Positions 16,998 to 31,477 of a stretch of 64,000 nt of DNA are shown piece by piece. Source of the stretch: Patescibacteria group bacterium (GTDB lineage Bacteria > Patescibacteriota > Microgenomatia > UBA1406 > GWC2-37-13); the NCBI GenBank assembly GCA_025057905.1, contig JANWUX010000002.1:1-64000 (forward strand). Direction: 5' to 3'. A program made the position numbers and the translations under genes. The notes beneath the pieces are model-generated. The model ran no database searches and had not been told where the DNA came from. It saw nothing but the letters and a program-made list of their open reading frames with translations. Position 1 is the first letter of the stretch; each line of letters opens with the position of its first letter.

Positions 16998-18956
16998 ATG
17001 GATAAGGAAAATCAAGAAAAACTGAAAAAAATTGCCAAACTTCTTCGTTATTACATTCTTCTTTCAACAACCGAAGCCGGCAGTGGTCACCCGACTTCCT
17101 CTCTTTCTTCAGTTGAGCTTTTGGCGACACTTTTTTTTGCTGGCTTTTTTCGCCAAGATCTTAAAAATCCAAAAGCTCTCTACAACGACCGCTTCATTCT
17201 TTCAAAGGGTCATGCCAGTCCGCTCTTGTACAGTCTTTATACCGTGGCTGGAGTTTTTACTAAAGAGGCGCTTTTAACCCTGAGGAAATTTGGTTCGATC
17301 TTTGAAGGCCATCCTTCACCGAAGTTTCCTTATGCTGAGGTTGCCACCGGTAGTTTAGGTCAGGGTCTTTCGATTGGACTAGGGATGGCTTTGGGGATTA
17401 AACTTAGATTTTTTGGTCACTACCGGCCAGTAAGCCATTTTTTCTCAACCCAACCTGAGCCACTGCCCTTTGTGTTTGTTCTTCTCGGTGACAGTGAGCT
17501 GGCTGAAGGACAGGTCTGGGAGGCAATCTCTCTTGGGGGTCATTATCAAATTGACAATCTTGTCGCCATCGTTGATGTCAGTCGTCTCGGTCAAACAGCA
17601 GAGACGATGGTTGGCTGGAACCTGTCTAATTATCAAAAAAAGTTTGAGGCTTTTAACTGGCAAGTTTATTCAGTAAGAGATGGCCATGACATTGAGGAGA
17701 TTTATAATGTTTATCATCGCTTAATCAAGGAAAATCAGCCATGGCCAAAGGTGGTTCTGGCAAAAACGATAAAGGGTAAAGGAATCAGTTTTCTCGAGGA
17801 TAAGGAAGGCTGGCACGGCAAGGTTTTAACTGAAACTCAACTAAAAGAGACAATTAAGCAGCTGGGCGACGTTGATTTTAAGATTAAGGGAGTCATCCAA
17901 CAGCCAAAAAAAATCCTCATTGAGGCAGGGAATAAGGTTGATGAAAAAACGGTTTTGGTGATAAAAAAACTTCAGAAGCTCGCCTCGACAAGCCAGTCTC
18001 CATCTTCCAAAGAAAAAAATCCAGTGGCTACCCGAGAGGCTTTCGGTCAAAGTTTAGTTGATTTGGGATTGACCGACAAAGATATTGTTGTTTTGGATGC
18101 CGAGACAGCCAACTCAACTTATGAAGATCTTTTTGCTCGAAGATTTCCTAACCGATTCATTGAGGTTTTTATTGCTGAGCAAAATATGGTTTCGATTGGG
18201 GTTGGACTGGCCTGTCTTGGGTTTAAGGTTTTTTTATCGAGTTTTTCTGCTTTCTTAACCCGGGCTTTTGATCAGATCCGCATGGCTCAGTACTCAAACG
18301 CTCATATTAAAATTGCCGGCTCTCACGCGGGCGTCTCCATTGGCTATGATGGTCCGTCTCAGATGGGGCTGGAAGATTTAGCCATGTTTAGCTCGATTTT
18401 GACCAGCACAATTCTCTATCCAGCCGATAAAGTTTCGTCCGCCAAACTTACCTCAATGGCCAATAAACTGCCAGGCATTGTCTATCTTCGACTGACGCGC
18501 GAAAAAACGCCAGTAATCTATTCCGAAGAGGAAGAATTTCCTATTCCTGGGCTAAAAATTCATTCTCGTGAAAATTCTAATTTTCCGAACGGAAAAAAAA
18601 TTCTTGTAATTGCCGCCGGGATTACTTTGAGTGAAGCCCTAAAAGCTCAGAGAAATCTAATTGGCAAGAATATCAATCTTGTCGTGGTTGATCTTTATTG
18701 TCCTAAGCCTCTTGATCGAAATCTACTTAAGAATCTCATAAAAACCTACCCAAAAATCATTGTTGTTGAAGACCATTATCCTGAGGGTGGGATCGGATCA
18801 CTAGTCTCAAAATTTATCCTGGAAGAAAATCTTTCTGTTGATCATTTTATTCATTTGGCCTGCCGAAAGATTCCCACTTCAGGCTTGCCACAAGAACTTT
18901 TAGCCTATGAGGAGATTGATCATCAGGCAATCACAAGAGCCGCCTTGGCTATTTAG
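16998..18956 (+). CDS. tkt: Transketolase
   Basis: The 652-residue protein is full length. The N-terminal thiamine-diphosphate domain carries GSGHPTSSLSSVELLATLFF, LSKGHASPLLYSLY and the cofactor motif GDSELAEGQVWEA ending near IVDVSR. The middle pyrimidine domain has EAFGQSLVDLG and FIEVFIAEQNMVSIGVGLA, containing the catalytic Glu. The C-terminal domain has IVVEDHYPEGGIGS. It moves two-carbon units between sugar phosphates in the non-oxidative pentose phosphate pathway, often the only pentose route in CPR bacteria. It stands 55 bp ahead of tyrS and may be co-transcribed with it. Confidence 0.95.
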   Translation: MDKENQEKLKKIAKLLRYYILLSTTEAGSGHPTSSLSSVELLATLFFAGFFRQDLKNPKALYNDRFILSKGHASPLLYSLYTVAGVFTKEALLTLRKFGSIFEGHPSPKFPYAEVATGSLGQGLSIGLGMALGIKLRFFGHYRPVSHFFSTQPEPLPFVFVLLGDSELAEGQVWEAISLGGHYQIDNLVAIVDVSRLGQTAETMVGWNLSNYQKKFEAFNWQVYSVRDGHDIEEIYNVYHRLIKENQPWPKVVLAKTIKGKGISFLEDKEGWHGKVLTETQLKETIKQLGDVDFKIKGVIQQPKKILIEAGNKVDEKTVLVIKKLQKLASTSQSPSSKEKNPVATREAFGQSLVDLGLTDKDIVVLDAETANSTYEDLFARRFPNRFIEVFIAEQNMVSIGVGLACLGFKVFLSSFSAFLTRAFDQIRMAQYSNAHIKIAGSHAGVSIGYDGPSQMGLEDLAMFSSILTSTILYPADKVSSAKLTSMANKLPGIVYLRLTREKTPVIYSEEEEFPIPGLKIHSRENSNFPNGKKILVIAAGITLSEALKAQRNLIGKNINLVVVDLYCPKPLDRNLLKNLIKTYPKIIVVEDHYPEGGIGSLVSKFILEENLSVDHFIHLACRKIPTSGLPQELLAYEEIDHQAITRAALAI

Positions 18957-30151: not shown

Positions 30152-31477
30152 CTAAATTAAGGACAAAATAAACTCTCTCTCTTCAATCAACTTAATAGAT
30201 TCTTCTGTTGATAAAAACCAGATTTTTTTATTTTTGAGAACTCCCACTGCTTGGAAATTGGTTCTGGCTTCAAGAGAAGTTAGGCAGGTGGTGTTTAGTC
30301 TGTGAGAGTTTTTTTTCGTGTAGAAAACAAGTTTGCCATGCCAGGGTTGAACCCGGGAGGTTGTTTCTCGAATAAGAGAAAAGCCCAAATGATCGCCCGG
30401 TTTGGGATTAATAGACACCCGAAAGGCATATGGGCTGATAAATTTCTCGGGGAAAATTTTTGCCTTACGATCGGCCAGAACACCGATGTTATGAATAATT
30501 GCTTTTTTGAAGGAATAAACAACAATCTCTTTTCTTAGTTTTTCCCACTTTGGGTCAGATAGTTTCTGTTCAAATTTTTTCATTATTTCCATATAAACCT
30601 CAATTGGCTCAAGGCCAAGTTCTCTGGAAAAGTAGGTAATCTGATGATAAGGAAGAGAGTTTCTAATAGATCGCCAAAGCGGGACAAAGTTATTTTCAGC
30701 ATTTTCTTGGTCAACTATCGGATCAGCATCAACGAGGCTTTTTTCCGTTTTTTTGATATCTTCAAGATCTAAGAATCGGTAGAGTTTTTCATACTTTTTT
30801 TTAGCTTCTTCAATCATCATTTTTCTTAGAGTTTTCTTTTTTTCTGGTATGAATAGTTCTAGAAAGTCTTCATAGTCAATAATTTTTAGATGGGTGAGTT
30901 TTTTTTCTTTGATTAGGTTTTGAAGTTTTTTCTGATAGGATAATAAGTAAGGCAAACATAGATCAAAGGCCTCAAGAAATCTTTTTCCTTCAGAGAGAAT
31001 AATAAACTGGCAACCGAAAGGATAAAAATGACCGACTACTCGACAGTAGGTGTTTAGGTTATAAAAAGAAATAATTTCAGCAAGATCAAGTTCTGATTCA
31101 TTGGCCGCCTCGGTTTTAAGATAACAGATATTTTTTCGAGTGAACATAAGGCCGACAAAAAATATCGGCCTTCTCTCTCTGAAGGAATTAATGACTTTTT
31201 CAAGAACTTGATTGTAGCTAGGTCCCTTTATTTTTTGTTTCCTGAAGGGGTAGTGATAAATTGCCAGGGCAGTAGCTTCATTATAATTAAGGTTCTTTTT
31301 CTTGATCTTTTCAATGAATCTCTCAGAAAGTTGGTTAAAAGACTTTAAAATTGTCGTCTCTAAATAACTTAGAGATTCTTGATTGAGAGAATCGTTCTTT
31401 TTAATTAGGTTTAGATACTCTTTCGGGTTAACTTTTTTAAGGAGGAGATCGAATTTATTTTCATAATGTTTTTTCAC
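30152..31477 (-). CDS. Isonitrile synthase-like (PvcA/DIT1 family) protein
   Basis: The 441-residue protein follows the order of the pyoverdine/dityrosine biosynthesis (PvcA, IsnA, DIT1) family. There is a strand with RRPIFFVGLMFTRKN at 102-116 (family: FPxKSPN, here diverged), then LDLAEIISFYNLN, then YPFGCQFIILSEGKRF at 152-167 (family: SDGRVF). Late in the protein comes FRVSINPKPG with PWHGKLVF at 378-386 (family: IRLSIHP ... PWHGV). Family enzymes turn the amine of Tyr or Trp into an isonitrile using ribulose-5-phosphate, or make related formyl products. No partner oxygenase is adjacent. The call is tentative because key motifs are drifted. Confidence 0.5.
   Translation of the reverse strand: MKKHYENKFDLLLKKVNPKEYLNLIKKNDSLNQESLSYLETTILKSFNQLSERFIEKIKKKNLNYNEATALAIYHYPFRKQKIKGPSYNQVLEKVINSFRERRPIFFVGLMFTRKNICYLKTEAANESELDLAEIISFYNLNTYCRVVGHFYPFGCQFIILSEGKRFLEAFDLCLPYLLSYQKKLQNLIKEKKLTHLKIIDYEDFLELFIPEKKKTLRKMMIEEAKKKYEKLYRFLDLEDIKKTEKSLVDADPIVDQENAENNFVPLWRSIRNSLPYHQITYFSRELGLEPIEVYMEIMKKFEQKLSDPKWEKLRKEIVVYSFKKAIIHNIGVLADRKAKIFPEKFISPYAFRVSINPKPGDHLGFSLIRETTSRVQPWHGKLVFYTKKNSHRLNTTCLTSLEARTNFQAVGVLKNKKIWFLSTEESIKLIEEREFILSLI

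Follow-up and report, generated by a model that had tools for sequence, protein, structure and literature searches.

The closest described systems are PvcA of Pseudomonas aeruginosa and PIsnA, both of which are represented in the PDB, and yeast Dit1, a further member of the same family. According to one report, Dit1 does not act as an isocyanide synthase; PvcA cannot replace it, and its product is most likely N-formyl-tyrosine (PMC7345447). Other authors, in contrast, have proposed that Dit1 makes the isocyanide of tyrosine (PMC5974471). Here, we describe a divergent relative of these enzymes that is encoded in the genome of a Patescibacteria group bacterium.

The window, i.e. the whole stretch of 64,000 nucleotides that was analysed, contains on its minus strand an open frame of 441 codons that begins with GTG and has no internal stops (positions 30152 to 31477). 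The encoded 441-aa protein matches a single Pfam family, PF05141 (DIT1_PvcA), in two stretches and with a score about twice the curated cut-off (hmmscan, E 1.9e-14, 54.2 versus 26.4 bits), which bears out the first-pass annotation of an isonitrile-synthase-like (PvcA/DIT1) gene at this position. Among all PDB chains, phmmer found matches only to PvcA (3e59, 1.4e-8) and PIsnA (9dhm/9dh4, 1e-7); each match again consists of two stretches and takes in the C-terminal part from SINPKPG to PWHG. When the two-member clade of the window protein and its closest relative was compared by hhalign with five authentic-type synthases, which are plasmid-borne enzymes of Hymenobacter, Burkholderia, Streptomyces and Embleya and are termed authentic-type by sequence and annotation, both domains were covered (probability 98.1, E 9.9e-14). 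The NCBIfam equivalog for L-tyrosine isonitrile synthases (NF045653, TyIsonSynPvcA) gave 40.2 bits and thus remained far below its cut-off of 600. No second PF05141 gene is found in the host genome (782,674 bp in 10 contigs, 92% complete). It is well supported by profile, profile-profile and fold comparisons as well as by the invariant residues that the window protein is an intact, very divergent member of the DIT1/PvcA superfamily.

In an alignment of 26 members, three residues occur in all sequences, namely K115, which is the Lys of the FPxKSPN motif, and D131 and E134, which are the Asp and Glu of the PDxxE motif (31076..31087, minus strand). The FPxKSPN site had been described as drifted, and indeed its S, P and N are replaced in the counterpart FTRKN (residues 112-116; 31130..31144, minus strand), but the drift spares the invariant Lys. 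The other motifs lie where they had been placed, all on the minus strand: SEGKRF as counterpart of SDGxVF (residues 162-167; 30977..30994), SINPKPG as counterpart of SIHPQ (residues 355-361; 30395..30415), and the conserved C-terminal motif PWHG (residues 378-381; 30335..30346). Apart from S-P-N, the RFLxED motif, the RSxAW helix, the His of SIHPQ and the GxPSHY motif are altered, and none of FPxKSPN, RFLxED, RSxAW and GxPSHY is thus present in the full form that authentic-type enzymes have. A check of the catalytic residues, as had been suggested, gives a divided picture: the three invariant residues are kept, but only 22 of the 66 positions that are invariant across the five authentic-type enzymes are retained (33%), and because of this the superfamily is secure whereas the reaction has to be inferred. 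The closest relative, a protein of the Patescibacteria KatS3mg092 MAG from the same genus, is 46% identical overall and shares long identical blocks with the window protein, which indicate purifying constraint.

The comparison of a predicted structure with PvcA, also suggested at first pass, turned out in favour of the family. An AlphaFold2 model for which the only input sequences were the window protein and its relative from KatS3mg092 is of low confidence (pLDDT 54, pTM 0.53), and PIsnA and PvcA chains make up all eight of its Foldseek matches to the PDB below 1e-3 (probability 1.00, E 7e-7 to 3e-4), with TM-scores that are low (0.29-0.32 by query length). A second model with the sister protein placed first reached a pLDDT of 41 and was too poor for use. 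A PvcA/PIsnA fold is thus predicted for the window protein, albeit from a low-confidence model.

What could such an enzyme do in this host? We consider it an evenly balanced proposition that the gene product is a soluble DIT1/PvcA-superfamily enzyme that acts on its own and places a one-carbon isonitrile (or formyl) group onto an aromatic amino acid. The invariant Lys, Asp and Glu would be part of the putative active site, the amino nitrogen of Tyr, Trp or Phe would be joined to a carbon of ribulose-5-phosphate, and the product would be an isonitrile-amino acid or its N-formyl equivalent. The host plausibly makes ribulose-5-phosphate, as judged from the genes for a transketolase of the pentose-phosphate route in the window (16998..18956, plus strand) and for rpe-like and rpiB(-like) enzymes elsewhere in the genome. 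The observation that no oxygenase or NRPS gene is adjacent holds and can be widened: neither a TauD-type Fe/2OG oxygenase nor a P450 is encoded anywhere in the 782,674-bp genome (92% complete), and scanning with regular expressions yielded no NRPS condensation-domain motif. The Fe/2OG oxygenase that might have been located elsewhere in the genome is hence not found in its TauD type, and the partners of pvc/isn-type clusters are missing here. With TauD, P450 and condensation motif lacking, the pathway would yield an isonitrile or formamide of an amino acid that skips the known tailoring steps; this compound may be the end product, or enzymes that do not belong to the known set may modify it. 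Isonitrile production by the window protein is plausible, but of the isonitrile-synthase reading it is the superfamily that stands on profile, fold and residues, whereas the product is put in question by the 40 of 600 bits, the 33% of retained positions, the missing tailoring oxygenase and the precedent of Dit1 (PMC7345447). If active, the enzyme would mean that a genome of <0.8 Mb has an unusually small pathway for making a reactive, metal-binding, antimicrobial group.

The same absence of an oxygenase partner is also what would be expected if the window protein were an enzyme of the Dit1 type, which with the same fold would formylate the amino nitrogen, so that an N-formyl-amino acid, and not an isonitrile, is formed for a structural or signalling molecule. 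M20 peptidases, a family that includes N-acyl-amino-acid amidohydrolases, are encoded near PvcA-like genes in two other CPR lineages: in one, the M20 gene directly follows the PvcA-like gene (L026:7212-9434), and in the other the PvcA-like gene is in an operon with HAD phosphatases, an ROK kinase and an M20 peptidase (L093:5502-10147). An M20 gene is absent beside the gene of the window, however, and the dispute about the Dit1 product described above weakens the precedent itself. We therefore regard a Dit1-type formylation as possible, though rather unlikely.

Of the genomes sampled from the class, 10 of 373 have a PF05141 match, and for the phylum this holds for 10 of 380, while the search for further CPR members in the class of genome G407 covered two genomes. 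PF05141 genes are rare yet recurrent in CPR, with about 3% of the sampled genomes and several old lineages. In the tree, the CPR members form several deep lineages, and the authentic-type enzymes group together apart from them (support 100/96). The window protein and its sister make up a clade of their own (100/100), whose branch is 2.06 changes per column long and lies outside the authentic-type clade, and on these grounds nothing suggests that the gene was recently acquired from a known isonitrile producer. Eight CPR members constitute a DWAE-type subfamily that has lost PWHG but keeps K-D-E. The extreme divergence of the window protein, together with a separate subfamily devoid of PWHG, could mean that the fold has been repurposed for another reaction or role, for example the binding of an amino acid or aminoacyl-tRNA, with neither ribulose-5-phosphate nor an isonitrile being involved. 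It would fit that the next-ranked, non-significant Foldseek matches are TyrRS and cyclodipeptide synthases, and that other CPR members adjoin TrpRS. Nevertheless, Lys, Asp and Glu are present in every member, and PWHG and SINPKPG of the window protein are much like those of authentic-type enzymes, which makes a repurposed fold unlikely. Among other CPR members, we also observed a MerR-type HTH domain that is fused to a PvcA-like domain and a further C-terminal domain (593 aa; L092:5726-10289, L091:745-2523); in L092, a gene for an O-methyltransferase protein follows the fusion, and site-specific recombinase genes flank it, so that this may be a mobile mini-cluster.

It is very improbable that the gene is a functionless, decaying lateral acquisition, since the full-length open frame, the native base composition and the identity of the catalytic blocks with those of a sister that is only 46% identical overall outweigh the fact that just two of the 20 genomes of the genus carry it (the host of the window and KatS3mg092) and its position beside a 3.5-kb AT-rich, ORF-poor stretch.

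The genomic position tells something about the origin of the gene. The usual order in the genus is TyrRS - (MurI) - RNP - CaCA antiporter - nadE - nadM-like - LeuRS, with nadE and nadM named by sequence inspection. In KatS3mg092, the PvcA-like gene and a gene for an FNR-like flavin reductase occupy the place of the nadE/nadM-like pair, and between them a broken C-terminal remnant of the nadM-like nucleotidyltransferase marks the insertion site (L002:9196-9504). The homologue (BPJE01000002, L002 7764-9146) resembles the window gene in its genus, in 46% identity over nearly the full length and in its antisense orientation in the TyrRS-LeuRS region. It differs in that it lies on the opposite side of leuS, beside the reductase and the remnant of the displaced nucleotidyltransferase gene, whereas the window gene lies past LeuRS in antisense orientation, with tRNA-Leu on one side and tRNA-Val/pheS on the other. 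A nadE/nadM-like pair of this type gave no tblastn match in the genome of the window. The gene was thus probably gained by the shared ancestor of these two congeneric hosts, within the TyrRS-LeuRS region, at a place that NAD-synthesis genes formerly occupied; a single insertion in that ancestor and a later local move make the most economical account that we can infer. Contamination or an assembly artefact is unlikely, because the composition is native (GC3 of 0.338 versus 0.349 +/- 0.059 for the genome) and the gene sits on a 304-kb contig with genus-conserved neighbour order.

Several other candidates were considered and rejected. Viral contigs have no related locus, and the window protein gave no PHROG match and no significant viral fold. 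PADLOC found no match to a defence system. A functional link to the nearby PheRS, LeuRS and TyrRS genes can be dismissed, as the order TyrRS-RNP-CaCA-LeuRS is ancestral in the genus, where it occurs without the gene. A regulatory RNA next to the gene was considered as well, but the RNAs found there are all tRNAs. The neighbouring 3.5-kb stretch (window:26500-30000) is the longest AT-rich, ORF-poor stretch seen in the genome (22-27% GC). Two ORFs were noted in it: one of 172 aa, which matches phage families of unknown function (phrog_29029), and an orphan of 102 aa.

In other CPR lineages, PvcA-like genes that share the superfamily and the invariant K-D-E with the window protein are linked to TrpRS in an operon-like manner (genomes G269, G324 and G046). 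In G269 and G324, the gene adjoins a TrpRS with an N-terminal YbaK-like editing domain (PF04073 + PF00579, TIGR00233; L024:5810-8418, L025:5387-7974), which is the only full TrpRS in either genome, and within the 50 genomes of that CPR family the PvcA-like gene and the fused-editing TrpRS occur in the same two genomes only. Such a coincidence would have a chance of 1 in 1225 if the events were independent, but it may represent one event. In G046, an apparent operon (L016:1673-5123) has two strongly diverged PvcA-like genes in tandem directly before the only TrpRS of the genome; a gene for a TrpR/YerC-like regulator lies upstream of them, and TyrRS is encoded divergently beside this operon. For these lineages, we hypothesize a Trp-derived product with editing-based self-protection, and the linkage leads to the concrete prediction that Trp is the substrate and that self-resistance is encoded along with the synthase. 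This lead is no evidence for the window gene, since the TrpRS of its host is unlinked (G000 C2:51839) and the TyrRS, at a distance of about 10 kb, is part of the ancestral order. A more general idea, which we regard as speculative and unlikely, is that CPR have an ancient isonitrile branch of their own, in which minimal, oxygenase-free enzymes would make isonitrile or formyl analogues of aromatic amino acids that the cells scavenge, and these analogues would act on neighbour or host cells, with some lineages protecting their own translation by the editing-domain TrpRS encoded beside the synthase.

How does the window protein relate to the described systems? With yeast Dit1, it shares the PF05141 family and the independence from an Fe/2OG oxygenase, but Dit1, compared here by its description, works with the P450 Dit2, whereas the genome of the window is free of P450s. 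From PvcA, the system differs by the missing PvcB-type oxygenase partner. At the protein level, the identity with authentic-type enzymes is only about 17% overall and SPN is lost, and compared with PvcA and PIsnA the N-terminus is longer and extra residues precede the C-terminal part. What the window protein has in common with PvcA (Pseudomonas aeruginosa, 3e59) and PIsnA (9dh4, 9dhm) is the PF05141 family, the predicted fold, the invariant K-D-E, the SI(H/N)P and PWHG motifs, and the two-domain extent.
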